DNA of 64,000 bases from Seonamhaeicola aphaedonensis. Lineage in GTDB: Bacteria > Bacteroidota > Bacteroidia > Flavobacteriales > Flavobacteriaceae. The notes beneath the pieces were generated by a model. That model searched no databases. It was given only the letters and a program-made list of their open reading frames with translations, and was not told the DNA's origin. Location of the stretch: NCBI RefSeq assembly GCF_003386195.1, contig NZ_QRDX01000006.1:186001-250000 (forward strand). The letters run 5' to 3'. This document shows, piece after piece, positions 2-39,978 of the stretch (the first letter of the stretch is position 1; every line of letters begins with the position of its first letter). The position numbers and the translations under genes were made by a program.

Positions 2-877
2 AATCTAGAAACTAAGAAGTTATTGCCAGAAAGTTTTGTTGAAAACTCCATAGACAACCATGCTATGCCAGATGCGATAATAAGTACATGGGGCCATGTT
101 ATTAAACAATCTATTAATAAAATTGGTATTAATCGTGTTAGCGGTATTGGTTTTGCCATGCCTGGCCCTTTTGATTATGCCAACGGAATTTCACTCTTCA
201 GTGGGCAAAACGGCAAGTACGAGCATACTTATGGTATAGATGTAAAAAACATGTTAACTGATTTTTTAAATTTAAAAGAACCACTAAAAATAAGATTTAT
301 TAATGATGCTAGCGCTTTTGCGCTTGGCGAAGCCAAATTTGGAAGTGCTAAAACCAATAATTCTATTTTATCCATAACATTGGGCACTGGATTTGGTTCT
401 GCTTTTATAAAAAATGGAGTGCCCGTTGTTAATGGCAATGAAGTACCAAAAGGTGGATGCCTATGGCATTTACCTTTTGAAAATGCCACAGCAGACGATT
501 ACTTTTCTACACGCGGTTTAATTGAGAGATTCGAACAAAAAACAGGACATAAATGTAAGGGCGTAAAAGACATCGTAGACCTATGTGGAACTAATAGTGA
601 TGCAAAACAGCTACTTGAGGACTTTGGCGAAAAAATGGCCAGCTTTCTTCATCCATGGGTAAGAAAATCGAAGGTAGAAACTGTCGTATTTGGAGGTAAT
701 ATTTCCAGAGCTTATCAATTTTTTGGAAAATCACTTAAAAGCTATTTAAATAGTGTAGATCTCCCGGTAAACATTATCGTATCTCAGCTAAAAGAAAAAT
801 CGGCATTTATGGGAAGCGCTGTCTTAATTGATGATAAACTTTATGAAAGCATTTTTCCTGTTTTACAGAAAATGTAA
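2..877 (+). CDS. ROK family sugar kinase (5' end outside window)
   Basis: Probable cytoplasmic ATP-dependent hexose kinase, by context a manno-, gluco- or N-acetylhexosamine kinase. The reading frame is open to the window edge, so the true N-terminus, including the first phosphate-binding DIGGT motif, lies upstream. A TTG at 23 is only an internal codon of this frame. Visible ROK features are GIGFAMPGPFD, NDASAFALGEAKFG (the catalytic Asp of ROK kinases sits in ND-A) and the phosphate loop LGTGFGSAFIKNG. The zinc motif CxCGxxGC of classical ROK kinases is absent, and a DYFSTRGL stretch stands in its place. A glycosidase-like lipoprotein and a mannose-6-phosphate isomerase fusion follow on the same strand, which favours phosphorylation of mannose released from glycans. 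The family call is firm; the substrate is inferred. Confidence 0.85.
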   Translation, partial: NLETKKLLPESFVENSIDNHAMPDAIISTWGHVIKQSINKIGINRVSGIGFAMPGPFDYANGISLFSGQNGKYEHTYGIDVKNMLTDFLNLKEPLKIRFINDASAFALGEAKFGSAKTNNSILSITLGTGFGSAFIKNGVPVVNGNEVPKGGCLWHLPFENATADDYFSTRGLIERFEQKTGHKCKGVKDIVDLCGTNSDAKQLLEDFGEKMASFLHPWVRKSKVETVVFGGNISRAYQFFGKSLKSYLNSVDLPVNIIVSQLKEKSAFMGSAVLIDDKLYESIFPVLQKM

Positions 878-923
878 TTATTAAATATGGCATTAACCCC
901 TAGTAATATAAATTCAATAACAT

Positions 924-2216
924 ATGAGATATTTAAAATTAATTGCATTATGCCTTTTGGTTGGATGTAAATCGGGTAAAGAAAACACCATTTTAAAGGA
1001 ACACATAATATCTAACGAGTACTTTACTTTTACTAAACAAAAAGCTCTAGAAGTCGTGAAAACTGGTTTTAATGCTGGAGATGGTTATGGCGAGGTATGG
1101 ATACGTGATTATAATACATTTATTGAACTTTCTGCTGAAGTATATCCAAAGGAAACTTTAAAGGAAAACCTACGCGTGTTTTTCCGATTGCAAGGAGATG
1201 ATGGAAATATTTTAGATGGCTTTATACCAAAAGAAAAAGCAGTACATACCGAGGGTGGTTATACTTATTATGAAACCGATTTAGAGCCCACATATACAGG
1301 TCATAAAAATACAGTAGAAACAGACCATGAGTCGTCACTGGTACAGTCGGTTTATAAATATGTTACTAAAACAGGAGATAGCGGTTTTCTAAACGAAAAA
1401 GTAGGAGACAAAACCATTGCTGAACGTATGGAATGGTCTATGGAGTTTCTTTTAAATCATCGTTGGAGTAAAGAGCACGGATTAATTTGGGGAGCTACTA
1501 CAGCAGATTGGGGTGATGTGCAACACTGCCACAATTGGGGAGTGTATCTTACGGAATGCACCAAATATTCTGTGGATATTTATGACAATGCGATGATGTT
1601 AATTGCCCTAGACAACATGATAGAACTTGTACCAGAAACCAAATTAAAATGGAAACCCATTCGTAACGATATCGCGAAAAACACCATGAAATACCTCTGG
1701 GATGAAGAAAATAAAAAGTTTATTCCACATGTTTATCTCAATGGATCACCATTTCCTGATGATTTTAACGAAAATGAAATTTTCTACCATGGAGGCACTG
1801 CCGTTGCCATAGAAGCTGGGTTATTATCCAAAAGACAGATTAAGGTTTCATTAGAGAAGATGATTGAAAACGTTAAAGCATCTGGAGCAGGATCTATTGG
1901 TTTAACCATGTATCCTCCATATCCTAAAGGTATGTTTGAAAGTCCAGGTATGGTACCTTACGGTTATCAAAATGGTGGCGACTGGACTTGGTTTGGTGGA
2001 CGTATGATACAGCAGTTAATTAAACACGGATTTATTGAAGAAGCCTACGAACACATACAACCCATGGTAAAACGTGTTAAAGACAACAACGGTTTTTACG
2101 AGTGGTATACCGTAGAGAATAAGCCCACAGGTTCTGGAACTTTTCGTGGTTCGGCTGGTGTTCTATACAAAGCCATACAGCTATTAGAAAATTATGCAAA
2201 CACTAAAAATGAATAA
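924..2216 (+). CDS. six-hairpin glycosidase-like lipoprotein
   Basis: The N-terminus ([15 protein letters not shown]) is a lipoprotein signal with lipobox LVGC, so the protein is expected in the periplasm or outer membrane. The remainder resembles (alpha/alpha)6-toroid glycosidases. Motifs include [11 protein letters not shown] near residue 56, ETDHESS near residue 133, [11 protein letters not shown] near residue 190, and a C-terminal [12 protein letters not shown]. Asp and Glu residues at the barrel mouth (WIRD, ADWGD, GDW) could be catalytic. I cannot assign a GH family. It resembles amylo-alpha-1,6-glucosidase or GH63/GH125-type catalytic domains more than any mannosidase in this locus. 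It overlaps the start of the next gene by a few bases, so the two are probably cotranscribed. A role in trimming a glycan side chain is inferred from context only. Confidence 0.6.
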
Positions 2217-3993
2217 AAGCGCTATGAGCCATTCAACACTAAGAAAATCAGACCAATACTTACTACCTCAGAAAAAGGAAGAATCGCCTGTTGGGATGTA
2301 CGACTTATATCCTTCAATAAGCTTAGAGTCGGGGAAAATTGCATCAGGTATAAACACTTTGGTAGATGAGCTGGACAACCAAAAAACAATTATCATTGAT
2401 GGTTATATTGGTGTGTTTTACGATAAGATTAAAACGCAAATAACTGAAGCATTTAAAAGCAAAGGAAAAGATGTGGCTTGGTTTAATACCGATACTGCCC
2501 TAAAGTCCGAAACCGAAATTGATAGCTTAATAAAACCTTTTCTTGGAGGAGACGACCCAATTTTTGGTAAACGTACAACACTACAGCTAGAAGACTTTTT
2601 TATTAAGGAAAAACTAGCCCAATTTAAACCCAATACCAATGCCGATGTAAACATCATTATAGGTGTAGGAGCCCGTTTAGCGGGATGGGAAGGTACCTTG
2701 GTATATATAGATTTACCAAAAAACGAGCTTCAATTTAGAGCGCGGGCTAAAAGTATATTAAACCTTGGAGCTTCTAAACCAGATGCGATTAAACCCATGT
2801 ATAAGCGCTACTATTTTGTAGATTGGATAGTACTAAACCAACACAAAAAAGAGCTATTACCCCAAATAGATTATTTTGTAGATGAACAACGTATAGACCA
2901 CATTACTTGGATGAAAGGAAGCGATGTTAGGGATGGATTAAAAACGATGTCTCAAAACATGTTTAGAGTGCGTCCTTGGTTTGAACCAGGAGCATGGGGA
3001 GGGCAATGGATTATCGACAAAATTGATGGCTTAAACAAAGAGGTTATTAATTACGCTTGGTCTTTTGAATTAATAGTTCCTGAAAACGGGTTGTTGTTTG
3101 AAAGCGATGGCCATTTGCTCGAACTATCGTTCGACTGCTTGATGTTTCAAGAACGCGATGCCGTCATGGGGAAACACGCCGAGCAGTATGGTTATGAATT
3201 TCCTATTCGCTTCGATTTTCTCGATACCTTTGATGGTGGCAACTTGTCCATTCAATGTCATCCGCATTTAGATTATATGAAGACGCATTTTGGAGAACCC
3301 ATTACCCAAGAAGAGACCTATTATATTCTAGATGCTGGGAAAGACGCAAAATGCTATCTTGGTTTTCAGGATGATATAAACCCTGAAGCTTTTGAAGCTG
3401 ATTTAAAGTATAGCTTTGAAAACAAAAAGGAGATAGATATCACCAAACATGTTCAAGTTCATGATTCTAAAAAGCATGATTTATTTTTAATTCCACCGGG
3501 TACGATTCACGGTTCTGGCATTGATAACCTTGTGCTGGAAATTAGTGCAACCCCTTATATATTTACATTTAAAATGTACGATTGGTTGCGTGTAGATTTA
3601 GATGGAAAACCACGACCTATTAATATAGAACGCGGTATGGAAAACTTATCCTTTGAACGTAAAGGAGATTACGTAAAAGAGAAATTAATTTCGCATCCGT
3701 ATGTATTAGAACAAGGAGACGATTGGATATTGTACCACTTACCAACCCACGAACAACATTCGTACGATGTGCATCGTTTTCATTTAAAAACAAATATAGA
3801 GGTTAAAACTAATAACCTTTGCCATGTATTATCTTTAGTAGAAGGCAAAAGCATTATAGTTGAAACTGAAAATGGTATGCGCCAACGTTTTAATTACGCT
3901 GAAACCTTTGTAATTCCGGCAAATGCAGGTTCGTACAAGATTATTAATGAATTAGATACTGAAATTATGGTTGTAAAAGCTTTTATGAAATAA
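2209..3993 (+). CDS. kinase-like domain fused to class I mannose-6-phosphate isomerase
   Basis: Predicted to interconvert mannose-6-phosphate and fructose-6-phosphate in the cytoplasm. About 594 residues, roughly 1.8 times a stand-alone ManA. Residues ~40-240 look like a nucleoside-kinase-type P-loop fold, but the loop reads [14 protein letters not shown] and lacks the GxxGxGK[ST] Lys and Thr, so ATP hydrolysis by this part is doubtful. The C-terminal ~320 residues are a cupin-type isomerase with QCHPH (Gln349, His351) and PPGTIHGSG, both known metal-ligand regions of type I phosphomannose isomerases. I chose the ATG at 2209, which overlaps the upstream stop. ATGs at 2194 and 2224 are alternatives. 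A normal-length ManA lies at 25554-26528, so the locus holds two isomerase domains. Confidence 0.8.
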
Positions 3994-4064
3994 TAAACGA
4001 ATTATCTTTAAAAAAAATTAACAATCATCCTTAACTAAGGATACGTTTAAAATTTTTCATTAGA

Positions 4065-4964
4065 ATGACTAAAAAAGTATTAAGAACTAAATTAACTCTA
4101 CTAGTTTTAGCACTACAAACTGCAACAAGCCTTGTGTACGGACAAGAAATTGAAAGACAACATATGGCTAAATTATCTTTCTTAATTGGAAATTGGACTG
4201 GAAACTCATATTCGTTTGCAAAAAATGACACCACAAAAGTTAAAGTAAGTGAAAGTGCAAATTATATTTTAGACGGCAATGCTATTACTTTGGATGTTAA
4301 TTCTTCAAGTGTGCAACTTCATACGGTAATAACCTATAGCGTGAATGATAGTTGTTATTATTACCAGCCTACAAGTAAAACTGAAAGTTATAAAAAATCA
4401 AAAGGATATTTTATAGATGGTAAATTTCTAGTTTACTTTAATCCTAAAAATCGACTTAATTTTGAAAAGACTAAATCTGGTGAATTCCACGAATATGGAG
4501 AGACATTAAAAAATGGAATTTGGGAAAAATACTTTGAAGATATTTTAGAACCGGCACCCTCAAACTATTCATTTGCTCCAAAAAAAGAAAAAATTACTAA
4601 AGAGTACATAGATCCCATTAAAGCATTGACCAATGTTGTATCTGTAGAACATGAAAACTTCAAAAACATATATATAGCAGGTCAAGTAGGTACAGGAAAG
4701 ACGAAAGAAGAACAACTTGAAACAGCCTATAAAGCTATTGAAAAAAGGTTATCACAGGCTGGAGCCTCCTTTTCAGACTTAGTGGAAATGAAAATTTATA
4801 TAGTCGATTATGACCCAGAGAAAGACCTAGATATGTTTTTTAGGGTTAGAGAAAAACTCTATGGTGAAAGAAAGATGCCTCCAAATGTGTTTATTGGGAT
4901 TTCATCACTTTATAGTAAAGAAAAATTAATTGAGTTATCAGGAACAGCGGTACTTATTAAATAA
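4065..4964 (+). CDS. exported lipocalin-like plus RidA-domain protein
   Basis: Residues 1-26 form a signal peptide ending VYGQ. Residues ~30-160 contain LSFLIGNWTG and a series of beta-strand-like stretches, resembling heme-nitrobindin/DUF1579-like barrels that begin with a 'G.W.G' strand. Residues ~180-299 are a YjgF/YER057c/UK114 (RidA) domain, with IAGQVGTG, the helix EEQLETAYKAIEKRL, FFRVREKLYG (position of the RidA substrate-binding Arg) and LIELSGTAV. Cytoplasmic RidA proteins deaminate reactive enamines and imines; an exported version has no established role. The adjacent gene encodes a second exported RidA domain. I cannot say what the substrate is or whether either protein belongs functionally to the glycan locus. 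Confidence 0.65.
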   Translation: MTKKVLRTKLTLLVLALQTATSLVYGQEIERQHMAKLSFLIGNWTGNSYSFAKNDTTKVKVSESANYILDGNAITLDVNSSSVQLHTVITYSVNDSCYYYQPTSKTESYKKSKGYFIDGKFLVYFNPKNRLNFEKTKSGEFHEYGETLKNGIWEKYFEDILEPAPSNYSFAPKKEKITKEYIDPIKALTNVVSVEHENFKNIYIAGQVGTGKTKEEQLETAYKAIEKRLSQAGASFSDLVEMKIYIVDYDPEKDLDMFFRVREKLYGERKMPPNVFIGISSLYSKEKLIELSGTAVLIK

Positions 4965-4979
4965 TATTAACTTATTTCT

Positions 4980-5462
4980 ATGACACTAAAACTGAAAAAT
5001 AAAAAAATAGGGATTAAGGAGTTTATTCATTTAATTGTTAGCATTCTATCTCTGAACCTTGCTTTTGGTCAAAATCCCGAAGAAAGTAAATTTAAAAAAC
5101 AGAACATAGGCGGTGGCGCAGAATGGAATTATTCGGAAGCGGTTAAGATATCAGACTTCTCTGAATTATTATTTATTAGCGGTCAAGTTCCTATAACCAA
5201 TCAGGGAAAAGTTCCAAGTAATATTAAAGATCAATGCACCGTTGCATGGTCTAACGTTGAAGCCCAATTAAAAGAGGCTGACATGACCTTGGATAATCTC
5301 GTTAAAGTCACTTTTTTTGTTTCTGACAGGAAATATTTGCGCGAAGTTGGTCAACTTAGAGAACAGAACCTTTTAAATATAAAACCAGCGTTAACCATTG
5401 TGATTACAGGTATATACAATGAAAACTGGCTACTAGAAATTGAAGCTATAGCTGCTAAATAA
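4980..5462 (+). CDS. exported RidA family protein
   Basis: A 160-residue protein with a long N-terminal hydrophobic signal (FIHLIVSILSLNLAFGQ), so probably periplasmic. The rest is one RidA/YjgF domain: ELLFISGQVP, the helix DQCTVAWSNVEAQLKEADM, LDNLVKVTFFVSD, LREVGQLREQ and a final LLEIEAIAAK. The Arg in QLREQ and the Glu in LEIEAIA match the positions that contact substrate carboxylate and water in active RidA deaminases. It starts 15 bases after the preceding RidA-domain gene, suggesting cotranscription and perhaps a hetero-oligomer, since RidA proteins are trimers. A strong hairpin terminator follows. The function is inferred at family level only. Confidence 0.75.
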   Translation: MTLKLKNKKIGIKEFIHLIVSILSLNLAFGQNPEESKFKKQNIGGGAEWNYSEAVKISDFSELLFISGQVPITNQGKVPSNIKDQCTVAWSNVEAQLKEADMTLDNLVKVTFFVSDRKYLREVGQLREQNLLNIKPALTIVITGIYNENWLLEIEAIAAK

Positions 5463-5490
5463 ATAGTAAAATCATTTACTATCCTAACAT

Positions 5491-5525
5491 AAAAACCCAT
5501 AATGCTAATTCATTATGGGTTTTTT
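5491..5525. terminator. bidirectional intrinsic terminator
   Basis: A perfect 14-bp stem (5491-5504 with 5511-5524) encloses a 6-nt loop CTAATT. One end is a run of A and the other a run of T, so it can work in both directions. It sits between the convergent RidA gene and the PNGase F gene. Confidence 0.9.
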
Positions 5526-5593
5526 GAATGATTTTAAAAATATTATGAAATGCTCTAGTCTTTAGTAAATTAAAAAGTACTAATTGTCAACTT

Positions 5594-6679
5594 TTAGTTT
5601 GTAATTATCGGGGGATCTATAGGTGTTTTACTTTTTACCACCACATAAGTAGAGATAGCATAAAAAGCACCTGTCTGACCTGAAAGTGTTCCTCCATCAG
5701 AAGTCCAGTCCTCAAAATCATATTCAAAATTGAATGTTACGTTAGAATTTGACCTATCAAACTTATCAATTCTAACGGGAACTGCCATTCCTGGGCACCA
5801 CCCTGCCCTATCTGGGGCCCAATTACCACGTTGCGGATTTATTTTATTACTACCACAACCTATCGGCTTCAATTCGTGGGTAAATTTGGGGTCATTATCA
5901 ATTTTAATTTGATGGGTTCTAAAGCACCATTCTGCACACCCCCTACCATCATTATCGGCCGGCGTTGCATGGCCCCAACCACTAATTAAAGTTCGTAAAT
6001 GCGTACTAAAGGCATTACTGGGTATGGCTATGGTTTTCGTTAAATCAAAACCAGCGGTACTACTTCCATAAGGCACTCCAGCCAATGACAAACCATTGTA
6101 GGCTATAACCTCTGAGACCGCATAATATGGGTAATCTGGCACACCTTCTTCAAAATCGAAATCAACAGACAAATTCCAACCGTCATCACCCCATGTTTCG
6201 ATGAAGGCACGTAATTCTATTTGACCTTGCAACATCGTCTTAAAATCGGTAACATCTATTTCAATTCCACGTGTTAGTTGAGATGTATCAACACCATAGG
6301 GTGTAATGTATCTACCCAACTCAAACCATTTTTTTGTTTTTTTGTCCTTAACGCTAATATTAGCATACACATCCCAAATATTACATCCAACACTGGGGCA
6401 ATCCAACTGTATAAACATTTTTACAGACTTAACGTTGGTATTATCCTCATTTAACGTAAAGGTTGCAATTTTACTTTGGCTAAGGCCTGCACCAAATGCT
6501 ATTCTAGTTTGACTAAAGGTTTTGTAGTTTAATGTTTTAAAATTCTGAGGTGGATTATTCTCTTCGGAATCATTACTCTCATTTCCTGAATCAGTACCAC
6601 TACTGCAATAACTAAAGCCCAAAAAAAACATAAGGCAAAATGATAACCTTATTACTGTTATTGAAAATATCTTCTTCAT
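5594..6679 (-). CDS. peptide-N(4)-(N-acetyl-beta-glucosaminyl)asparagine amidase F (PNGase F)
   Basis: Hydrolyses the bond between Asn and the first GlcNAc of N-linked glycans, releasing the whole glycan from protein. At 361 residues it is close to the PNGase F precursor of Elizabethkingia. After an N-terminal signal and a low-complexity Ser/Asn/Glu linker (~26-45), two eight-stranded jelly-roll domains follow. Signatures match PNGase F well: AFGAGLSQS, CNIWDVYAN, RGIEIDVTDFK, IETWGDDG, SGWGHATP, GCAEWCFRTH, NWAPDRAGWCPGMAVP. The catalytic Asp60, Glu118 and Glu206 correspond to Asp103, Glu161 and Glu250, with spacing preserved (58 and 89 versus 58 and 88). It is the last gene of the - strand cluster, behind the permease gene. 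A Cys lies at the end of the signal region (FSYCSS), but the lipobox is poor, so lipoprotein status is uncertain. Confidence 0.96.
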   Translation of the reverse strand: MKKIFSITVIRLSFCLMFFLGFSYCSSGTDSGNESNDSEENNPPQNFKTLNYKTFSQTRIAFGAGLSQSKIATFTLNEDNTNVKSVKMFIQLDCPSVGCNIWDVYANISVKDKKTKKWFELGRYITPYGVDTSQLTRGIEIDVTDFKTMLQGQIELRAFIETWGDDGWNLSVDFDFEEGVPDYPYYAVSEVIAYNGLSLAGVPYGSSTAGFDLTKTIAIPSNAFSTHLRTLISGWGHATPADNDGRGCAEWCFRTHQIKIDNDPKFTHELKPIGCGSNKINPQRGNWAPDRAGWCPGMAVPVRIDKFDRSNSNVTFNFEYDFEDWTSDGGTLSGQTGAFYAISTYVVVKSKTPIDPPIITN

Positions 6680-6695
6680 AATTTATTTTTATAAT

Positions 6696-8009
6696 CTATT
6701 TATACTCATTGTCATAACTCGAAAACACCTTTCTACCGTACCAAGCAATATAAGTAAAGCACAACAACGGTAATATAAAGGAGATATTTACTTCTGGCAC
6801 CGATAGAATGCTTACATCAGCAACACCATTTCCTCCTATATCAATAATTTCACCCTGTAACTTTGGCATTAAAGCACCGCCTACAATAGCCATGACCAAA
6901 CCTGCAGACCCCACTTTGGATTGTTCTTCGGTTAAATCACGTAAGGCTATACCATAAATTGTTGGAAACATTAAAGACATACAAAATGATACTCCTACCA
7001 AACTATATAAACCAAACACACCTTTAATAAAAATAGTTCCAATTACAAATAACATAGCCAATAGTGCGAAGTACATTAACAATTTACCTGAACTCACAAA
7101 CTTTAAAAGGTAAGTACCAACAGCTCTACCTATTGTAAAAATTATAAATGCCCCCATTTGGTAATAGCCAGCCGTTACGCTATCCATATGGATAGCTTCG
7201 GCATATTGATAAATGTAAGTCCAGCACATAATTTGCGCACCAACATATAGCACTTGAGCCAAAACACCGAGTGTATATTTTCTATTTTTAAAAAGTACCG
7301 CAAAGGTTTCGGAGATATTTGGCATCCCGCCTTCTTCTTTTGATTGTGGCATTTTGTTTACCAAAAACAAGACAAAAACACCCAGAATTACCAAACCAAG
7401 AATAACATAAGGGTCTCTTATAACTAATAAATCAGAGGTTTTTATTAAGGTTTTAGAAACTTCATCTAAGGCGCTAAAATCTGAGACATCATCAGATTGT
7501 AAATTTTTTAAAACAAACTGTTGAGCCACAAATAAACCAGCAATAAGTCCAACAGGGTTAAACGCCTGCGCTAAATTTAAACGTTGTGTCGCTGTTTCTT
7601 TTGAACCCATCGCCAAGGCATAGGGGTTTGCTGCTGTTTCTAAAAAGGCCAAACCAAAGGTTAAAATGTAAAGTCCCAAGCAGAAAAACCAAAACTGCTC
7701 TGTTACTGCTGCAGGGTAGAATAAAAGTGCCCCCGCTGCATAAAGCCCTAGTCCAATCAAAATACCTATTTTATAGGAGTACTTTCTCATAAACATAGCA
7801 GCAGGTAAAGCCATACAAAAATAACCTCCATAGAATGCCATCTGTACCCAAGCTGCTTGTGAGTTTGATAATTCCAACACCTTTTTAAAGGCCTGAACCA
7901 TGGGATCTGTTACGGCATTGGCGAACCCCCATAGAGCAAACAAGGAGGTTACCAAAATAAAAGGAATCAACATTTCCTTTGAAACTATTACATTTTGTTT
8001 CTTTTGCAT
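6696..8009 (-). CDS. FucP/GlcP-type MFS sugar permease
   Basis: Inner-membrane proton-coupled sugar symporter of the fucose/glucose-galactose permease branch. About 437 residues with 12 hydrophobic segments. The first segment carries the FALWGFANAVTDPMVQAFK signature typical of this branch, and a loop has ETAANPYALAMG. It probably imports mannose, GlcNAc or short oligosaccharides from the periplasm. It starts just after a terminator that closes the SusCD-lipoprotein unit, and 16 bases separate it from the downstream PNGase F gene, so the two may form a subunit with their own promoter or read-through. The family assignment is firm; the transported sugar is inferred from context. Confidence 0.88.
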   Translation of the reverse strand: MQKKQNVIVSKEMLIPFILVTSLFALWGFANAVTDPMVQAFKKVLELSNSQAAWVQMAFYGGYFCMALPAAMFMRKYSYKIGILIGLGLYAAGALLFYPAAVTEQFWFFCLGLYILTFGLAFLETAANPYALAMGSKETATQRLNLAQAFNPVGLIAGLFVAQQFVLKNLQSDDVSDFSALDEVSKTLIKTSDLLVIRDPYVILGLVILGVFVLFLVNKMPQSKEEGGMPNISETFAVLFKNRKYTLGVLAQVLYVGAQIMCWTYIYQYAEAIHMDSVTAGYYQMGAFIIFTIGRAVGTYLLKFVSSGKLLMYFALLAMLFVIGTIFIKGVFGLYSLVGVSFCMSLMFPTIYGIALRDLTEEQSKVGSAGLVMAIVGGALMPKLQGEIIDIGGNGVADVSILSVPEVNISFILPLLCFTYIAWYGRKVFSSYDNEYK

Positions 8010-8030
8010 ATCTATAATTAATTACTAATT

Positions 8031-8060
8031 TAAAAAAAGAAGAACCCTTAAGGGTTCTTC
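8031..8060 (-). terminator. intrinsic terminator after the SusCD-LamG genes
   Basis: A 22-bp perfect palindrome at 8039-8060 (arms GAAGAACCC and GGGTTCTTC around TTAA) is followed on the - strand by a run of T (AAAAAAA at 8032-8038 on the + strand). It lies between the LamG lipoprotein stop and the permease start. Confidence 0.88.
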
Positions 8061-8093
8061 TCTCTCTAAAACTAAACTAACTCAAAATAATTA

Positions 8094-9944: not shown

Positions 9945-9951
9945 ACTTTTT

Positions 9952-11505: not shown

Positions 11506-11516
11506 ATTATTCTTTT

Positions 11517-14684: not shown

Positions 14685-14698
14685 TTTCGACAAACAAC
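14685..14698 (-). promoter_or_regulatory. candidate operator shared with the NagB-PIG-L gene
   Basis: The - strand reads GTTGTTTGTCGAAA. The identical 14 bases occur at 40044-40057 upstream of the NagB-PIG-L gene, in the same orientation relative to the gene. Here it lies 33 bases upstream of the candidate -7 box, a typical activator position. Confidence 0.45.
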
Positions 14699-26528: not shown

Positions 26529-26611
26529 AAATATAAATGTATTAGTTAAACGTTTTGCTTAGTAAAAATAATTATAATGTACTAGACTACACATGGATCT
26601 TTAATGCATTA

Positions 26612-28891: not shown

Positions 28892-28900
28892 AAATAAGTA

Positions 28901-29986: not shown

Positions 29987-29993
29987 ATTTAAA

Positions 29994-32042: not shown

Positions 32043-33920
32043 TTAATTTTTATACTTCCTTACTTTATCTAACCAAGTAAACTTCAAAATCACAGAAGTT
32101 ACTACAAACAGTGCCAAAACGCAAAACATATTTGTATAATCTCTAACCATAAAATAAATAGGCAACAATATCATACTGGATTGCCAAGCAATACCAATGA
32201 TACAGTTAAACATATCTATTGGAAAATCTTTATTTTTCTTAAAAACTGGATTGGTTTTCTCAATTGTTTTAAAAACTGGGTTCCACCAACCCCAAGGTCT
32301 AACATTTGTATAGAAACTTTTTAGGGTGTTCATATCTGTTGGTGCTGTTAAAAAAGTACCTAAAAACGCTCCTAATAGTGATATCAAAAGTATAATAGGA
32401 AAAGCATAAATAGCTGGTAATGTTGCTGCATCATGCATAACAGACCCAACTTGGAAGTTATTCTGATTTTGCTCTAAAACAAATTGAAGGGTTGCAACCA
32501 AAAGTCCGGCAGCCATTCCCCAAAAATAGCCCCATCCATTGAAACGCCACCAAATCCACTTTAATAGATTAGCCGCCACGTATCCACCATATAACGCACT
32601 GGTTATCCATAGTGTAATGGAATTTATTGAATCTGCAAAAAAGCCCATAATGACACCTAAAATAACAATACCAAAAGACGCTAGGTGGCTTGCTCTAATA
32701 TAATGTTTTGGTGAGGCCTCTGGCTTGAAATATTTTTTATAAATATCATTTACAATATAAGCAGGCCCTGAATTTACAAAAGCGGAAAATGTTGACATAA
32801 AAGCTGCCAAAAGACCAGCTAAGAGTACACCTTTAATACCAACTGGCACATGATAGTTGATAACCTTAGGAAGAATTATTTCTAAATCATTTGTAGATAA
32901 AGAATTTGATATAGACATTTCTGGCGCAATAAAAACCAGACCTAAAATAACAATCCCTGCAATAAGTAAATATCTAGGAATGAACAATACTAAATTAGTA
33001 AATCCACTCATATAGGCCGCTTCTTTTACAGACCTTGTGGAAAGTATACGTTGCATATCATAACTTGGGGTTGGACCTGCGATACTTGCAAAAAAACCTT
33101 TAAACAAAGACATACCAATAAAAGCACCAAACATTTTATAGCCCTGAGTATCTATAAGGTTATTGAATGCCTCATACTTTCCATCCCAAAAACCATCAAG
33201 TTCCCAACCAAAAAACACATTACCCCATTCTTTCGAAATTATAGTTTCAAGTTGGACATCTGATATTGAAACAAAGGTGTAAGTAGCTATTAAAATACCA
33301 GCTAAAACCATAATACCATATTGTAATACCTCTGTAGCTACAACAGAGAACATTCCACCTTTTACAGTGTAAATTGTTGTTAATAAAATGATTATTAGTG
33401 CATAGCTTTGGTCTGATGATAAGAGGATTGAATTATTAAGTTCTACCGCCAAGTCCCATGGTAAAATAATGGTTAAGAATTTACCAACACCTTCAAAAAA
33501 ATAGGCAATAAAACCTACCGATGCTACAATAGCAAATATGGCAACAATAAGGTGAGATGCTCTACCTGCTTTATCATCTCCAAAACGTGTTAGAATCCAT
33601 TCAGAGCCTGTCATAATATTAGAGCGTCTTATCCATGCGGCCAGAAACACCATGACAAAAATCTGATTAAAAATAGGCCACATCCACATAAACATAAAGC
33701 TTTTTACCCCATATAGAAATAGTATTCCAACCATCCATGCGGTACCAGAAACATCAAACATTCCAGAGCCGTTGCTTAGCCCCAAATAATACCATTTTAT
33801 ACTATTTCCCCCCAAGAAGTAAGAATCTAAACCTTTAGATGCTCTTTTAGATATCCAAATCCCTACACCAAGAGTTAGCGCTATGTATATTCCAATTATT
33901 GTTACATCAACTGCATTCAT
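32043..33920 (-). CDS. sodium:solute symporter (SSS family)
   Basis: Inner-membrane Na+-coupled importer, 625 residues with 13-14 hydrophobic segments. SSS features: VTIIGIYIALTLGVGIWISK at the N-terminus, SYFLGGNSIKWYYLGLSN, the GTAWMVGILFLYG helix, the QRILSTRS motif near residue 290 (typical of sugar members) and an internal SGPAYIVNDIYKKYFKP. The stop abuts the GH130 start and 3 bases separate it from GH92 copy D, so it is in the same transcript. Uptake of mannose, GlcNAc or Man-beta-1,4-GlcNAc for the phosphorylase is inferred. It complements the FucP-type permease at 6696-8009. Confidence 0.88.
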   Translation of the reverse strand: MNAVDVTIIGIYIALTLGVGIWISKRASKGLDSYFLGGNSIKWYYLGLSNGSGMFDVSGTAWMVGILFLYGVKSFMFMWMWPIFNQIFVMVFLAAWIRRSNIMTGSEWILTRFGDDKAGRASHLIVAIFAIVASVGFIAYFFEGVGKFLTIILPWDLAVELNNSILLSSDQSYALIIILLTTIYTVKGGMFSVVATEVLQYGIMVLAGILIATYTFVSISDVQLETIISKEWGNVFFGWELDGFWDGKYEAFNNLIDTQGYKMFGAFIGMSLFKGFFASIAGPTPSYDMQRILSTRSVKEAAYMSGFTNLVLFIPRYLLIAGIVILGLVFIAPEMSISNSLSTNDLEIILPKVINYHVPVGIKGVLLAGLLAAFMSTFSAFVNSGPAYIVNDIYKKYFKPEASPKHYIRASHLASFGIVILGVIMGFFADSINSITLWITSALYGGYVAANLLKWIWWRFNGWGYFWGMAAGLLVATLQFVLEQNQNNFQVGSVMHDAATLPAIYAFPIILLISLLGAFLGTFLTAPTDMNTLKSFYTNVRPWGWWNPVFKTIEKTNPVFKKNKDFPIDMFNCIIGIAWQSSMILLPIYFMVRDYTNMFCVLALFVVTSVILKFTWLDKVRKYKN

Positions 33921-33923
33921 AAA

Positions 33924-36173
33924 TCATTTTTTTAAACCCCAACTTTTATTCGGCTTTGGCCCCATAATAAATTTTAGTGTTCCTCCATTCATAATTTGTT
34001 CATGAGAGATGATTGTTCTATTAAAATTTTTGTTATTTAAGGTAGCTGATTGTATATAGATATTTTCTTTTGAAACATTTATAGCCTCAATAACAAATGT
34101 TTTATTATTTTCTAATCGAATTGTTGTTTTTTCAAAAATAGGGCTACCAATTTCATAGGTAGCAGATGCGGGATTCATGGGGTATAACCCCATAGCGCTA
34201 AAAACATACCAAGCACTCATTTGTCCGCAGTCTTCATTACCACTTAAACCATTTGGGGTAGTGTTATACTGAGTGTTCAAAATATGGTTCACCCAAAACT
34301 GTGTGCGCCATGGTTTATTGGCCTTATTAAACATATAAGCAATATGGTGACTAGGCTCATTACCGTGTGCATACTGGCCGATAAGCCCCGAGATATCAAC
34401 AGAAACATTATCTCCCGTAATATTGGAGCTTTCTGTAAAAAGTTGTTCTAATCTGGAAGTAAAAATTTCATTGCCGCCATGCATAGCAATAAAATCTTCA
34501 ACGGCATGTGGCACAAACCAACTGTGCTGCCATGCATTACCTTCTGTATAATCGGTATGTTCTCTATGATTTGAATATTTAGGATCGAAAGGTTCATTCC
34601 ATGATTTACCATCTTGTGACTTCCCCCGCATAAACCCTGAGTCATTGTCAAATAAATATTGATATGCTTTTGAACGTTTTATAAAGAAATTATAGTCGTT
34701 ATCTTTTCCTAGTACCTTAGCCATTTGCGCTACACACCAATCATTGTAAGCATATTCTAAAGTAATTGTGACCGATTCATCCAACAATTCATAAGGAATG
34801 TAACCAAACCTCTTATAATGCTCTAAGCCTCTTTCATCTTGCATCATGGTTGTTTTCATTGCCTCGAAAGCGCTTTCAGCATCAAAACCACGAATGCCTT
34901 TCAAATAGGCTTCTACAATAACAGGTATGGAATGATATCCAGTCATAGTGTTGGTTTCATTACCATACAATGTCCATACAGGCAAAATGTTACGAGTTTC
35001 ATAATAAGCCAACATGGAATTGATAAAATCAGCTACCTTATCTCTACCTATTAAAGTAAGGAGTGGGTGCTCTGCTCTAAACGTATCCCAAAGTGATAAT
35101 GTAGAATAAGCAGTATAATTTTGGGCAATGGCTACACTATCATTCTCTATTCTAAATGCTCCATTGGCATCACTAAAAGTAACTGGTGCTAACTGACTAT
35201 GATACAATGCTGTGTAGAATATGGTTTTTAATGAATCTATAGGTGTTTCAACTTGTATTTTTTGTAGTGACGTTTCCCAAGTATGTTCTGCACTTTGCTT
35301 GGTTGCTTTGAAATCAAAATCACCTGATTCTAAATTATTTTTAGCATTTTCTATGCTTACTGAAGATAGTGCTACTTTAACAAAAAGCTCATTAGTGTTT
35401 TGATTATTAAAAACCAACTGCGTTGCTGTTTTTTGTCCTTCAGCTAAATTATTTTCTATTAAACTTCCATCAACATATAAGTTATAATTTTTGATAGGTT
35501 TTGAAAATTTAGCCACAAAAAACACTTTTTGGTTTTTGGCCCATCCCGTACTGAATCTATAACCTGTTACAGTGTTGTTATCTTCAATATTAATTGCTGT
35601 TTCTGTTGGCTTATCCCAATTAATGGAAAATCCCAAATCTACTACAACCGATTGTAAATCTCCTTCTTTAAAGGTATATTTATGATAGGCTGTTCTCTGA
35701 GAGGTTGTTAATTCTACATCAATGTTATGGTCTTCGAGATAGACTTGGTAATACCCTGGAGAAGCATTCTCATTTTTATGGCTGTATTTTGATTTATAGT
35801 TTAGACTATCTCTATCTTTTGGTGTAGGCAACAGATCAACCTCTTTATTTACAGGCATTAGCAATAAATCGGCCAAATCCCCAATACCTGTTCCGCTTAG
35901 TGCTAAGTGACTAAACCCAATAGCTAAGGAATCTGTGTAGTGATAGCCCGAACACCAATCCCAAGCAGTAATACCGTTTACGGGGGTTACTTGTAACATA
36001 CCAAATGGTATTGTAGCTCCTGGGTATGTATGCCCATGACCTCCAGTACCAATAAAAGGGTCTACTATGCTAATTAACTCTGGTGTGTGATTGTTTTTAG
36101 AATAATCTTTACTTTTATTCTCGCAAGAAAAAATTAAAAATACTAAAAACAAACATGGTATTTTATATTTCAT
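33924..36173 (-). CDS. GH92 alpha-mannosidase lipoprotein (copy D)
   Basis: GH92 exo-alpha-mannosidase, 749 residues, lipobox LIFSCEN. Motifs: VDPFIGTGGHGHTYPGAT near residue 37, LSLWDTFRAEHP near residue 364, EGNAWQHSWFVPHA near residue 553 and GNEDCGQMSAWYVFSAMGLYP near residue 652. The acceptor motif YAHGNEPSHH is as in copy C. The ending VPHA replaces VPHD or VSHD of the other copies after the catalytic Glu region. It is the first gene of the - strand series and starts 104 bases from the divergent LytS-type kinase, so the operon promoter should lie in that gap. No clear -7 box was found there. Confidence 0.93.
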   Translation of the reverse strand: MKYKIPCLFLVFLIFSCENKSKDYSKNNHTPELISIVDPFIGTGGHGHTYPGATIPFGMLQVTPVNGITAWDWCSGYHYTDSLAIGFSHLALSGTGIGDLADLLLMPVNKEVDLLPTPKDRDSLNYKSKYSHKNENASPGYYQVYLEDHNIDVELTTSQRTAYHKYTFKEGDLQSVVVDLGFSINWDKPTETAINIEDNNTVTGYRFSTGWAKNQKVFFVAKFSKPIKNYNLYVDGSLIENNLAEGQKTATQLVFNNQNTNELFVKVALSSVSIENAKNNLESGDFDFKATKQSAEHTWETSLQKIQVETPIDSLKTIFYTALYHSQLAPVTFSDANGAFRIENDSVAIAQNYTAYSTLSLWDTFRAEHPLLTLIGRDKVADFINSMLAYYETRNILPVWTLYGNETNTMTGYHSIPVIVEAYLKGIRGFDAESAFEAMKTTMMQDERGLEHYKRFGYIPYELLDESVTITLEYAYNDWCVAQMAKVLGKDNDYNFFIKRSKAYQYLFDNDSGFMRGKSQDGKSWNEPFDPKYSNHREHTDYTEGNAWQHSWFVPHAVEDFIAMHGGNEIFTSRLEQLFTESSNITGDNVSVDISGLIGQYAHGNEPSHHIAYMFNKANKPWRTQFWVNHILNTQYNTTPNGLSGNEDCGQMSAWYVFSAMGLYPMNPASATYEIGSPIFEKTTIRLENNKTFVIEAINVSKENIYIQSATLNNKNFNRTIISHEQIMNGGTLKFIMGPKPNKSWGLKK

Positions 36174-36277
36174 AAATAAATGGATTAATGTAAAAATTCA
36201 TAATTTTATCATTCTCCCAAATAAATTTAGACGGATAACATATAATCTAAGCTAAACACCAAAAAAAATCAATCCAC

Positions 36278-37354
36278 ATGAAATCATTAAAAAAAATAAC
36301 TTTTAATTCAAACCACAGATATAAAATATCTCTTTTACATCATGTTCTTTTTTGGACAGCTTATTTCTCATTAAATACTTGGAGATGGGGAACATACTTT
36401 AATGACTTTACCTATTCTCTAAAAACTAACATAATTGGGTTCCCGCTACATATGATAACCTGCTATCTAACTATTTATGTGTTGATTCCAAATTTAATTT
36501 TCAAAAAAAAATATTTTTTTTTCATAATAGCACTACTTACAACTATATTTTTAACGGTAATAGTAAAGTTTAATCTTACTTATTATTTGGTAAGTTCAAA
36601 TGTATGGCCAGAAGGACCAGCTGCAACAAGTAATTTTACTTTAAGTTACGCTATAGATATGATGATTGGTGAATTATACGTTGTCACTTTTGTTGCTGCT
36701 ATAAAAATAACATTTGACTTCCTGGAAGAACACAAAAGAGTTACCGACCTTGAAAAAGCCAACCTAGAAACAGAATTGCTTTTTCTAAAAACTCAAATAT
36801 CTCCTCATTTCTTTTTTAACACGCTTAATAATATTCATTCTTTAGCATTAGAAAAATCTAATAAAACCTCAAAAATCATACTGAAATTATCTGAGCTCAT
36901 GCGCTATCTTTTGTATGAAACCAAACAAAAAAGGCAAACTTTAGAAAACGAAATTTTATGTATCCAGAATTATTTAGATTTAGAAAAAGTACGTCATGAT
37001 GATTCTCTTGAAGTTAACATGTCTATTTCAGGTGACATCCAAGATAAAAAAATTGCTCCCATTTTACTATTATCATTCATTGAAAACGCCTTTAAACATG
37101 GAGTTAACAAAAATATAGGCAATACTAAAGTAGACATAACTTTCGAAATTAAAGAAAACTTTCTTTACTTTACGGTTTCGAATCCAATGCCTTCAATAAT
37201 TAATCAGGAAAATCATGTTAGTTACTCTGGAGGTATTGGTTTAAAAAATGTTAGAAAAAGACTTGCCCTAGGTTATAAGAAAAATGATTATAGCCTAAAG
37301 CTAGAAGAGTTAAACAATACATTTTACGCAAAACTTAAAATTAGAGTATCATGA
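36278..37354 (+). CDS. LytS/YehU-type sensor histidine kinase
   Basis: Membrane sensor kinase, 358 residues. Four or five hydrophobic segments span residues ~20-150, with no large periplasmic domain. The kinase core begins after a coiled segment (EEHKRVTDLEKANLETELLFLK). The phospho-acceptor region is QISPHFFFNTLNNIHSLA (His_kinase family), and the ATP lid shows SFIENAFKHGVN and GGIGLKNVRKRL. It overlaps the response regulator gene by 4 bases (ATGA). It is divergent from GH92 copy D, so it probably regulates the glycan locus, perhaps by sensing membrane or imported sugar signals. No hybrid two-component or SARP-type regulator is present in the window. Confidence 0.9.
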   Translation: MKSLKKITFNSNHRYKISLLHHVLFWTAYFSLNTWRWGTYFNDFTYSLKTNIIGFPLHMITCYLTIYVLIPNLIFKKKYFFFIIALLTTIFLTVIVKFNLTYYLVSSNVWPEGPAATSNFTLSYAIDMMIGELYVVTFVAAIKITFDFLEEHKRVTDLEKANLETELLFLKTQISPHFFFNTLNNIHSLALEKSNKTSKIILKLSELMRYLLYETKQKRQTLENEILCIQNYLDLEKVRHDDSLEVNMSISGDIQDKKIAPILLLSFIENAFKHGVNKNIGNTKVDITFEIKENFLYFTVSNPMPSIINQENHVSYSGGIGLKNVRKRLALGYKKNDYSLKLEELNNTFYAKLKIRVS

Positions 37355-38061
37355 ACATTAAGTGTTTAATCATAGATGACGAGCCGTTAGCAATAAATGT
37401 TATAAAAAACTATTTAGAACAAATTGAAGGAATTGAATTATGTAACACTTTTAATAATGCGGTAGATGGATTAAACTTCTTGAAAAGCAACACTGTTGAT
37501 CTTATTTTCTTGGATATAAACATGCCTGTTTTAGACGGTCTTAGCTTTATTAAAAGCTTAGAAAAACCACCTTTACTCATTGTCACTACAGCTTATGACG
37601 AATTTGCTATTCAATCTTATGAACTTGATGTCCTTGACTACCTTGTAAAACCTATTGAGTTCCCTAGATTTATGAAGGCATTAAATAAGGTTAACAGAAG
37701 ACTAGATGTTAGAACGCAGCAAACTGCTCAAAACTCTCGTTCTCATCTTTTTATAAAAATTGATAAAAAGAAAATGAAGAAAGTTTATTTGGATGAAATT
37801 CTTGTTATAGAGTGTTTAAAAGATTACTTAAAAATAAACACTTCAACCGGCAAACATATCATTCACAGTACTTTAGCTGATTTCACAAATTTACTGCCCG
37901 ATAGTGATTTTATTAGAATTCATAGATCATATACCGTTGCAATAGACAAGATTGATGTTATTGAAGGTAATAGTATTGAAATTGAAGGCGTTCGTTACAC
38001 CATAGGTAGGTCATACCTCGAAAAGGTAAAAGAAAAAATACTCACTCACAAGGCTAATTAA
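37351..38061 (+). CDS. LytTR-type response regulator
   Basis: Cytoplasmic DNA-binding response regulator, 236 residues. The receiver domain has the acidic pair in LIIDDEP, the phospho-acceptor Asp55 in LIFLDINMPVLDG and a Lys in YLVKPIEF. The LytTR DNA-binding domain (~125-232) carries VYLDEILVIECLKDYLKI, FIRIHRSYTVAI and YTIGRSYLEKVKE. It follows the sensor kinase with a 4-base overlap and ends only 3 bases from the convergent NagB-PIG-L stop. LytTR regulators bind short direct repeats; whether they bind the 14-nt block shared by the susC and NagB-fusion upstream regions is untested. Confidence 0.93.
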   Translation: MNIKCLIIDDEPLAINVIKNYLEQIEGIELCNTFNNAVDGLNFLKSNTVDLIFLDINMPVLDGLSFIKSLEKPPLLIVTTAYDEFAIQSYELDVLDYLVKPIEFPRFMKALNKVNRRLDVRTQQTAQNSRSHLFIKIDKKKMKKVYLDEILVIECLKDYLKINTSTGKHIIHSTLADFTNLLPDSDFIRIHRSYTVAIDKIDVIEGNSIEIEGVRYTIGRSYLEKVKEKILTHKAN

Positions 38062-38064
38062 CTT

Positions 38065-39978
38065 TTAAAAATAATATCTTTTAAAAGCTTCAATAGCTGC
38101 ATAATCAGCCAATCCTAAATCGTTATATTTTTTTGCTGTTAGCCGGTTTCTATCTTCGGCTCTAACCCAGAATTCTCTTGAATCATCTCCTTGAAACATA
38201 ACACCATCTTTTTGTGATTGATGGTAAAAAATGGCATGTCGCTTTTTAAGCACCTGATCTGGACTCATTGGAACTGCCATTTCTATTTGATAGGATTCCC
38301 ATTCATGCCACGCTCCTCGGTAAAGCCATACCCAACAATCATTCATGTAATTGTTGTGTTTTAATGCTTCTATAGACAAAAATAAAGCATCTAGACATAC
38401 TTTATGAGTACCATGAGGGTCTGCTAAATCACCAGCAGCATAAATTTGATGTGGTTTTATTTTATCTATTAAATCTTTCATAATAGCTACATCCTCAGAG
38501 CCAATATTATTCTTTTTTATAGTACCTGTTTCATAAAAAGGTAAATCTAAAAAATGTACATTTTTATCATTTAAACCTAAATACCTCGTCGCTGCTAACG
38601 ATTCATTTCTTCTAATCAAGCCTTTAAGTTTTCTTACTTTTTCAGAATCAATATCGTTATCGGTTTTTATTCTAAAGAAATTGATGATGCTTTGAGTTTC
38701 ATCACAGTTTGGGCAAAGTGACTGAGTGATTTCAGCAAATTTTAAAGCTTCCTCATCAGAAACAGCAATATTTCCTGAAGTTTGATACGCTACATGCACA
38801 TCATGTCCTTGTTCTACTAATCTATCAAAAGTCCCTCCCATAGAAATGACATCATCATCTGGATGAGGGCTAAATATAATGATACGCTTACGTTCGGGTA
38901 CTGCTCGTTCGGGTCTGTTTGAATCATCAGCATTAGGTTTTCCACCAGGCCAACCTGTAATTGTATGTTGTAATCTATTAAACATTTTTATATTCAAATC
39001 ATAAGCTGTTCCCTCTTCTGTAAGTAAACCAGACATCCCATTGTTGTTATAATCTGAATCTGTGAGTTTTAAAATTGATTTATTTAGCAATTCAGAAAGC
39101 CAAACAACAGCTTTTAGTTTAAGCGACTCATCCCAATTACAGGAGGTTACCAACCAAGGTGTTTTTACCCGAGTTAACTCTGTTGCAGCCCCTTCGTCTA
39201 ATATAAAAGTGGTATTCTTATGATTTTGCAAATAAGTTGCTGGCACTTCAGAAGTGATATCACCCTCGATTGTCTTTTGTACAATTTCTGCTTTATTATT
39301 ACCCCAAGAAAGTAATACTATGCGTTTAGCACCCATGACTGTTCCAATACCCATAGTAATGGCTTTTCTGGGAACATTGTCAATACCAAGAAAAGCTGGG
39401 GCTGCATCAACTCTGGTAATATGATCTAGAGTAATACTTCTAGTGCCCGAATTAAAATGTGACCCCGGTTCATTAAATCCAATATGCCCCGTTCTGCCAA
39501 TTCCTAAAAGTTGGAAGTCTAGTCCGCCAACTGATTTTATCTTCATCTCATAATCTATGCAATATTGGTATAAATCATCAGCACTTACTTTACCATCTGG
39601 TATATTAATATTTTGGGGTAATATGTCCACATGGTTAAATAAATGCTCATGCATGAAATAGAAATAACTTTGAATATTACTTTTATCCATGGGATAGTAT
39701 TCGTCAAGATTAAAAGTAATTACATTTGCAAAACTAAGCCCTTCTTCTTTGTGCAAACGCACTAATTCTTCGTAGACTTTTATTGGAGAGGATCCAGTAG
39801 CTAAACCCAGAACACATGGTTTACGCTTAGCTTCTTTTTCTTTGATTAAATTTGCAATTTCATGAGCAATTAGAACAGAAGGTTCTGTGGAATCTTTGAA
39901 AATAACATTATGAATTTTTTCAAAACGTGTTTCTTCAAAAGTTCCTGGTTTTTTATAACGGATATTTTCTAAATTCAT
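38065..39978 (-). CDS. nagB: glucosamine-6-phosphate deaminase fused to PIG-L deacetylase domain
   Basis: 637 residues, two parts. Residues ~20-270 are a NagB-type sugar isomerase domain (ATGSSPIKVYEEL, TFNLDEYYPM with Asp92, GIGRTGHIGFNEPGS). His165 and Glu170 match the E. coli triad members His143 and Glu148, but the Asp141 position is Thr163. Residues ~360-630 are a PIG-L/LmbE zinc deacetylase domain (SPHPDDDVISMGG, DPHGTHK). Together they could de-N-acetylate and deaminate amino sugars, feeding GlcNAc from glycan cores into fructose-6-phosphate. No separate NagA is present in the window. The upstream region has a 14-nt block in common with susC. Such fusions occur in Bacteroidota; the role of the PIG-L part is inferred. 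Confidence 0.87.
   Translation of the reverse strand: MNLENIRYKKPGTFEETRFEKIHNVIFKDSTEPSVLIAHEIANLIKEKEAKRKPCVLGLATGSSPIKVYEELVRLHKEEGLSFANVITFNLDEYYPMDKSNIQSYFYFMHEHLFNHVDILPQNINIPDGKVSADDLYQYCIDYEMKIKSVGGLDFQLLGIGRTGHIGFNEPGSHFNSGTRSITLDHITRVDAAPAFLGIDNVPRKAITMGIGTVMGAKRIVLLSWGNNKAEIVQKTIEGDITSEVPATYLQNHKNTTFILDEGAATELTRVKTPWLVTSCNWDESLKLKAVVWLSELLNKSILKLTDSDYNNNGMSGLLTEEGTAYDLNIKMFNRLQHTITGWPGGKPNADDSNRPERAVPERKRIIIFSPHPDDDVISMGGTFDRLVEQGHDVHVAYQTSGNIAVSDEEALKFAEITQSLCPNCDETQSIINFFRIKTDNDIDSEKVRKLKGLIRRNESLAATRYLGLNDKNVHFLDLPFYETGTIKKNNIGSEDVAIMKDLIDKIKPHQIYAAGDLADPHGTHKVCLDALFLSIEALKHNNYMNDCWVWLYRGAWHEWESYQIEMAVPMSPDQVLKKRHAIFYHQSQKDGVMFQGDDSREFWVRAEDRNRLTAKKYNDLGLADYAAIEAFKRYYF

Follow-up and report, generated by a model that had tools for sequence, protein, structure and literature searches.

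PNGase F and a conserved GHL10-CBM9 block in a probable N-glycoprotein-utilisation locus of a marine flavobacterium

Which glycan is degraded by a locus that combines PNGase F with a SusCD pair, four GH92 mannosidases and a GH130 phosphorylase? The question is raised by a stretch of 64,000 nucleotides from Seonamhaeicola aphaedonensis, hereafter the window, which covers positions 186001-250000 of contig 6 (NZ_QRDX01000006.1) in a genome of 3.5 Mb. An earlier annotation of its letters alone (the original prediction) had read positions 2-39978 as a near-complete degradation locus for high-mannose N-glycoproteins and not for yeast mannan. All 24 genes of at least 150 aa within these positions were scanned with Pfam and some of them also with NCBIfam. 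Gene identities, active-site residues, gene order, conservation and a regulatory box were read from the sequence; the substrate, the order of the steps, the role of a GHL10 lipoprotein and the regulator of the box are inferred. With a probability of about 0.8, the window is that section of a larger mannoside island which serves N-glycoprotein utilisation in this marine flavobacterium.

The 24 genes form two opposing groups (Table 1). The minus-strand group runs from 36173 to 5594 in the order GH92d, the symporter SSF, GH130, a CBM9 protein, GHL10, GH92c, mannose-6-phosphate isomerase (PMI), GH99, GH92b and GH92a, followed by a 1628-aa type IX secretion system (T9SS) protein, SusC, SusD, a laminin-G lipoprotein, the importer MFS and PNGase F. 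A gap of 291 bp separates the T9SS protein from SusC, from which a second unit is counted. A histidine kinase and a LytTR regulator are divergent from GH92d, with a NagB fusion next to them, and the plus-strand group, which starts outside the window, closes with ROK, a GH94-superfamily-like lipoprotein, a weak PMI-like protein and two RidA-like proteins. SusC and SusD are adjacent and accompanied by carbohydrate-active enzymes (CAZymes) and a regulator, the arrangement by which a polysaccharide utilisation locus (PUL) of Bacteroidetes is recognised. The genes named in the original prediction are found here: the SusCD pair, PNGase F with its three catalytic residues, an endo-acting GH99 with FNEWHEG, four different GH92, a cytoplasmic GH130, two importers besides SusCD, a ROK kinase truncated at the window edge (the complete gene, contig 6:185942-186877, starts 58 bases left of the window and matches PF00480 at E 4.6e-24) and the NagB fusion. 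Only one of its two PMI domains is clear (25554-26528), while the other is weak. Its list lacked the kinase/LytTR pair, GHL10, the CBM9 protein, the T9SS protein, the GH94-superfamily-like protein and the two RidA-like proteins.

PNGase F aligns with the solved Elizabethkingia enzyme (1pnf) over residues 48-361 (E 1.2e-110), and D60, E118 and E206 of 1pnf correspond to D103, E161 and E250 of the open reading frame. The two proteins share the fold family and the catalytic residues, but the window enzyme differs as a lipoprotein encoded in a SusCD operon. Glu at position 118 is the type I state of PNGases and blocks core alpha-1,3-fucose (PMC9522356). From this residue the enzyme is assigned to type I. 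A scan of named genomes gave 40 PNGase loci, whose neighbours were named by BLAST against island proteins in flanks of at most 10 kb; several loci end at contig ends, and L044 is a fragment. All five close homologs (78-93% identity; Seonamhaeicola sediminis, Hyunsoonleella ulvae, two Algibacter and one Maribacter) lie in the row SusC-SusD-surface glycan-binding protein (SGBP)-PNGase, and here too PNGase F is the last gene of the SusCD operon. Among the other 35 loci (52-63% identity, one a fragment), recognisable genes of this locus are near the PNGase only in L029, a Polaribacter metagenome-assembled genome, namely GH130, CBM9, GHL10, glycosylasparaginase-like, GH20 and GH92a genes. The PNGases of L009-L043 (52-63%), from marine Flavobacteriia, stand alone beside apparent housekeeping genes; most have an extended N-terminal part and, behind the lipid Cys, CSDD-like stretches.

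The catalytic-domain matches of GH92a-d are all at E 1.2e-155 or better, and the GH92 acid and DxG-SAW motifs are found in all four. The nearest solved relative of GH92b, 2wvx/2wzs, is presumably BT3990, the alpha-1,2-mannosidase encoded in the high-mannose PUL of B. thetaiotaomicron, and GH92b is, by sequence likeness, likely an alpha-1,2 enzyme. GH99 matches BtGH99 (4acy), and the second W of its SWWG is taken to indicate that the -2 site binds mannose and not glucose. A close copy of GH99 (89%) is found only in S. sediminis among six genomes with a related PNGase, with a 26% match in one other and none in four; judged by this distribution, GH99 is not a core part of the locus. The best solved relative of GH130 is UhgbMP (4udg/4udk; E 8.2e-148, 494.9 bits), a type presumably equivalent to GH130_2, and beta-1,2-mannoside and Man-Glc phosphorylases reach at most 128 bits. 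A signal peptide is absent from GH130 by eye, and lipoprotein signals are seen by eye in GH92a-d, GH99, GHL10, SusD, the laminin-G protein and PNGase F.

The genes around GH130 recur in relatives. A GHL10 match at E 1e-30 is found in 68 of 299 family genomes, and 40 of 68 matches other than that of the window were fetched from 39 genomes, nearly all at 52% identity or more; their neighbours were named by BLAST against island and L029 proteins, so that other CAZymes would go unseen. The recurring order is GH92d-SSF-GH130-CBM9-(GH18)-GHL10-GH92c-glycosylasparaginase-GH20-GH92b-GH92a. Within the 40 loci, CBM9 occurs in 38, GH92 in 32, GH130 and SSF in 29 each, the kinase/LytTR pair in 27, GH20 in 25, a glycosylasparaginase-like gene in 24 and GH18 in 10. 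GHL10 is present in 43/46 GH130-positive genomes versus 25/253 GH130-negative ones (Fisher p 1.5e-30, relatedness ignored). The core block GH92-SSF-GH130-CBM9-GHL10-GH92 is old and widespread in Flavobacteriaceae.

All 24 glycosylasparaginase-like genes share STW and CTTSG/GRVGDSP motifs, which we take to be marks of glycosylasparaginase, and the two tested match PF01112. Glycosylasparaginase makes sense for GlcNAc-Asn alone, and its place in the block is thus independent support for an N-glycan substrate. An enzyme of this type is used on GlcNAc-Asn by L. casei (PMC6960285). The window copy lacks glycosylasparaginase and GH20 and carries PNGase F and GH99. In this genome no glycosylasparaginase relative is found at E 1e-60 and no GH18 at E 0.001, which fits PNGase F in that role; its one GH20 is on a different contig. 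The idea that PNGase F and glycosylasparaginase are mutually exclusive was rejected, since both occur in L029 and in a Maribacter genome, which holds them together with the core block (L008 and L084 are at adjoining places on contigs of equal length, 467986). Collectively, the glycosylasparaginase-like genes of relatives, the UhgbMP-type GH130, the kinship of GH92b and the conserved place of PNGase F after SusC-SusD-SGBP support the Asn-linked N-glycan of the original prediction; a high-mannose type is likely.

GHL10 is assigned by a PF02638 match above cut-off and by Asp-Tyr (D168-Y169) at the end of strand 4; H166-L-D168-Y169-x-R171, E227, E263 and D279 are invariant in an alignment of 29 sequences. 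Sequence comparison of GHL10 with solved structures gave nothing beyond chance. An AlphaFold model made from two sequences (pLDDT 62.8, pTM 0.68) has eight strands alternating with helices. Its Foldseek top 50 is mixed, with beta-amylase at rank 1, GH164 beta-mannosidase, PgaB at rank 10 and others, and reading an activity from the model was rejected for this reason. Cwp19 has a matching Asp-Tyr in its active site, and PgaB, a hydrolase of N-acetylhexosamine (HexNAc) polymers, is a structural neighbour (PMC5765458). GH18 lies beside CBM9 and GHL10 in the ten loci L095, L096, L097, L112-L114 and L119-L122; the GH18 of L095 matches PF00704 (E 4.5e-87) and has a weak EndoS-type match. GHL10 as a plain substitute for an endo-beta-N-acetylglucosaminidase is weakened by this co-occurrence. 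The GHL10-CBM9 pair, conserved and uncharacterised, may act on the N-glycan core and is the best lead of the locus.

A box precedes several operons of the island. The divergent kinase promoter carries TTTAGACNNAYNAC-N10-AGCTAAAC or a close variant in 26 of the 27 loci with the kinase pair (by eye), and with a model from 25 relatives, the window omitted, the window site scores 36.0 bits versus shuffle maxima of at most 5.7. A score of 11.3 bits at contig 6:61616 falls within a gene and is regarded as a chance hit. The half pattern TTTMGACVRAYRAC (14 bp) was built from the kinase/GH92d sites of the 25 relatives together with the SusC, nagB and GH38b sites of this genome; on the coding strand it reads GTTRTYBGTCKAAA, and a weaker second half lies some 21 bp upstream. 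Six of its seven genome matches lie at contig 6:138345-226044, all intergenic in a stretch whose intergenic share is 4%, and precede an MFS-GH92 operon, LacI, DUF1080/GH38b, SusC, GH92d/kinase and nagB. The seventh, in simple-repeat DNA of contig 1 before an RNase G-like gene, is probably a chance match. The relative loci hold 36 box matches, none inside a gene, nine of them 34-110 bp ahead of SusC and one, in L006, ahead of nagB. Sixteen of the 36 are at the kinase promoter and thus not independent of the pattern; 18 concern neither kinase nor GH92d, including the nine before SusC, and are independent. The reversed pattern gave one match in GHL10 loci. Among the matches listed, 26/72 lie within 30 kb of GHL10 versus 1.05 expected, in 13/22 genomes (this genome omitted, training sites included). 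The box is found in 5/5 loci of close PNGases and in 0/35 other PNGase loci. It is a putative LytTR site.

The following mechanism is proposed. SusC, SusD and the laminin-G lipoprotein would bind and import N-glycans or glycopeptides, and PNGase F, acting on the surface or in the periplasm, would detach from Asn those glycans that carry no core alpha-1,3-fucose. The mannose arms may be trimmed by the lipoproteins GH92a-d and GH99. GlcNAc-GlcNAc would then be cut to yield Man-beta-1,4-GlcNAc, perhaps by GHL10 with the CBM9 protein, perhaps by GH85 or GH20 elsewhere in the genome; this core cut is the weakest step. Man-beta-1,4-GlcNAc would be imported by SSF and phosphorolysed by the cytoplasmic GH130, and MFS, ROK, PMI and NagB could serve the final metabolism. 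The kinase/LytTR pair presumably activates the set via the box, which precedes SusC, nagB, the core operon and further operons of the island. A wider scheme, in which GHL10 and CBM9 form a new chitobiose-core activity feeding SSF/GH130, the kinase/LytTR pair governs, via the box, an N-glycan regulon conserved in many marine Flavobacteriaceae, and PNGase F replaced glycosylasparaginase in this lineage, is unlikely to hold as a whole.

For GHL10-CBM9, action on another HexNAc polymer of the cell envelope or of algae, with the sharing of the block a chance of regulation, is only a little short of an even bet. In at least seven of the 40 loci (L100, L103, L105, L106, L109, L115 and L117) GHL10 is not accompanied by GH130, and mannose genes are few or absent. 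The GH18-bearing loci imply that GHL10 is not simply a missing endo-enzyme, and the GHL10 literature located deals with Cwp19, which acts on peptidoglycan (PMC5765458), and with an enzyme of starch. On the other hand, nearly all GH130-positive genomes have GHL10, and the GHL10-CBM9 pair retains its position between GH130 and GH92c. The box may likewise belong to another regulator, such as a sigma factor or a LacI/AraC protein of the island, and it does occur with no kinase pair in view in L093, L105, L116 and L119; its near-constant presence at the divergent kinase promoter makes this possible yet not the favoured explanation.

A mannan substrate has to be weighed against the wider island. The listed genes lie within 2-39978, but the start of the locus at position 2 does not hold: related genes extend leftwards on this contig for about another 116 kb, and the window forms the right-hand end of a mannoside island of roughly 155 kb. 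Left of the window are two GH125, two GH94-like paralogs, GH38, two GH92 and LacI, further left four more GH38 and UxuA and then three GH92 around 129-141 kb, and in the leftmost part a second SusCD, GH115, a third GH125, GH85 (PF03644 E 8.4e-80) and a GH76-like gene in the 72.5-75.9 kb region. Contig 6 holds in total seven GH38 (one of them, at 155833-159414, named because it resembles the adjacent gene) and three GH125 (one of which was identified only by BLAST). The 16 GH92 matches of the genome represent 13 genes and one two-piece remnant, all at 105-221 kb of contig 6. The exclusion of yeast mannan for want of GH76 is therefore a weak argument, since it covers the window only, where GH76 is indeed absent, and the contig continues with these families. 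The genome has two GH76 matches above cut-off, both weak. That the island serves fungal or algal alpha-mannan or glucuronomannan, PNGase F merely freeing the polymer from cell-wall mannoproteins, would agree with GH99, GH38, GH125, GH92, GH115 and the GH76-like gene on one contig, and with the box before GH38b and MFS-GH92 operons; GH99, GH38, GH125 and GH92 are used by B. thetaiotaomicron on yeast mannan, on which its GH99 acts (PMC10154615). It is nevertheless quite improbable: the GH76-like match, some 110 kb away from the window, is partial (167/366 profile positions, 33.9 bits against a cut-off of 25.9), the UhgbMP-type GH130 and the glycosylasparaginase-like and GH20 genes of relatives point to a GlcNAc-Asn core, and no sulfatase is found among the 24 scanned genes of 2-39978 (no genome-wide sulfatase search was made).

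Several further findings weigh against the N-glycoprotein reading, besides the GH38, GH125, GH115 and GH76-like genes suited to alpha-mannan or glucuronomannan. PNGase F has no evident surface-export stretch behind its lipid Cys: the sequence CSSGTDSG lacks the acidic residues seen in SusD (CTEDFEE) and the laminin-G protein (CGDDD), presumably a surface-export signal in Flavobacteria, which leaves either surface or periplasm as its site of action. GHL10 occurs in 5/23 PNGase-positive genomes versus 63/276 others, and a general partnership of PNGase F with GHL10 or with GH130 was rejected (p 0.63 and 0.27); with no such association across the family, PNGase F would be a late addition to the core block. 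None of PNGase F, GHL10 and GH130 occurs in the one congeneric genome (G213), which marks the gene set as accessory; glycosylasparaginase is missing there too. The 14-mer alone is unspecific: this genome holds seven matches to it and four to its reversed pattern, and 208/299 family genomes have at least one match; a box specific by count alone was rejected. As to the term near-complete, the listed genes are there, but a GlcNAc-GlcNAc core cutter of a characterised family is absent from the 40 kb.

The kind of locus is known, but its release enzyme is unusual here. Sulfatase-free, GH92-rich PULs of marine Bacteroidetes in the same bacterial family are alike in GH92, GH130, CBM9 and SusCD and, for the scanned genes, in having no sulfatase; they carry GH20 and GH18, both missing from the window copy though present in 25/40 and 10/40 relatives (PMC6794258). 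The excerpts examined name no PNGase, glycosylasparaginase, GHL10 or regulatory box and leave the substrate as 'alpha-mannose-rich', with no N-glycan named. N-glycoproteins have been suggested for GH92-rich PULs in general (PMC6298971). In Bacteroides group 2 loci, PNGase lies, in some species, beside SusC/D, GH92 and GH130, but these PNGases are type II (Gly at 118) and directed to plant and insect glycans, unlike the type I (Glu) enzyme here, and GH99 and GHL10 are unnamed in the excerpts (PMC9522356). B. thetaiotaomicron PUL72 is alike in SusCD and several GH92 lipoproteins including a BT3990-like enzyme; it relies on a surface GH18 and an extracytoplasmic function (ECF) sigma factor, and its final trisaccharide is handled by other loci (PMC11180146). 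In contrast, the window has PNGase F and the kinase/LytTR pair, and its GH130 stands in the same operon, in a genome lacking GH18 at the threshold given above, and no ECF sigma/anti-sigma pair is found among the 24 scanned genes. The Runella PNGaseRz operon likewise joins a PNGase F superfamily gene with alpha-mannosidase and asparaginase, but has fucosidases and GH18, and most PNGases of that study are orphans (PMC12381499). New here is the shared 14-bp box; a literature search outside subscription journals and preprints found no report of the box or of GHL10 in N-glycan loci. The substrate of the GH92-rich, sulfatase-free marine PULs has been open so far. If they are N-glycan loci, algal glycoprotein would be a direct food of abundant marine bacteria, the box would be a sequence mark for reading the regulon from genomes, and the conserved pair beside GH130 would be a concrete candidate for a new N-glycan-core activity.

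Table 1. Genes and boxes in the first part of the window (window positions; cut-offs in bits)
Feature	Position	Strand	Basis or remark
ROK sugar kinase	2-877	+	PF00480 E 2e-19; 5' end cut by window edge
Lipoprotein, GH94-superfamily-like (alpha/alpha)6-type hydrolase	924-2216	+	weak 8bou match, E 4.4e-6
599-aa protein, weak C-terminal PMI similarity	2194-3993	+	TIGR00218 31.4 bits, below cut-off; no Pfam match
PNGase F, type I (from Glu at 118)	5594-6679	-	Pfam; alignment to 1pnf; lipoprotein signal by eye
MFS sugar importer	6696-8009	-	PF07690 E 1.8e-21
Surface glycan-binding lipoprotein, Laminin_G_3 domains	8094-9944	-	PF13385 E 7e-31, two stretches
SusD-like	9952-11505	-	PF12741 E 6.6e-80
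SusC-like	11517-14597	-	TIGR04056 632.6 bits, cut-off 368
Box (TTTCGACAAACAAC)	14685-14698	+	88 bp before SusC start
T9SS type B surface protein, 1628 aa	14889-19775	-	TIGR04131 E 8.6e-34
GH92a	19832-22087	-	Pfam; nearest solved relative 7zgm
GH92b	22094-24427	-	Pfam; nearest 2wvx/2wzs, 1067.8 bits, next family 812
GH99, endo-acting alpha-mannosidase family	24444-25547	-	E 1.6e-130; SWWG and FNEWHEG kept
Mannose-6-phosphate isomerase	25554-26528	-	TIGR00218 162.8 bits, cut-off 116.2
GH92c	26612-28891	-	Pfam; nearest 6f8z
GHL10 lipoprotein	28901-29986	-	PF02638 E 1.3e-9, 38.1 bits, cut-off 27.9; predicted (beta/alpha)8 fold
Secreted CBM9-domain protein	29994-31064	-	PF06452 E 2.6e-9
GH130, UhgbMP-type (Man-beta-1,4-GlcNAc phosphorylase)	31065-32042	-	E 1.3e-66
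SSF sodium/solute symporter	32043-33920	-	PF00474 E 1.1e-25; candidate Man-GlcNAc importer
GH92d	33924-36173	-	Pfam; nearest 6f8z
32-bp box between histidine kinase and GH92d	36226-36257	+	36.0 bits
Histidine kinase	36278-37354	+	PF06580 E 4.4e-24
LytTR response regulator	37351-38061	+	PF00072, PF04397
NagB and PIG-L de-N-acetylase fusion	38065-39978	-	NF002557 1063 bits, cut-off 384
Box	40044-40057	+	66 bp before nagB start

Some minor observations concern other genes. The lipoprotein at 924-2216 has no match in Pfam or NCBIfam, and its AlphaFold model (pLDDT 50.6) is too poor for use; its paralog MGHc matches PF17167 (E 5.6e-10). Three such paralogous lipoproteins are present (924-2216; L002:295-1620 and 3114-4454), two of which directly precede GH125 genes, and they may represent an unassigned hydrolase family. 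The T9SS protein has aspartate-rich repeats; its sole counterpart among the mapped loci is a partial one in S. sediminis, where L005 ends. The stretch contig 6:70311-186000 also holds a hybrid sensor-like protein and, by eye, glucuronate-type genes (UxaC, UxuA), and the GH92 remnant at contig 6:138568-139201, two pieces with stops, adjoins an intact GH92. The two RidA-like proteins (4065-5462) have signal-peptide-like N-termini and are convergent with PNGase F; they are kept in S. sediminis and absent from that place in H. ulvae.

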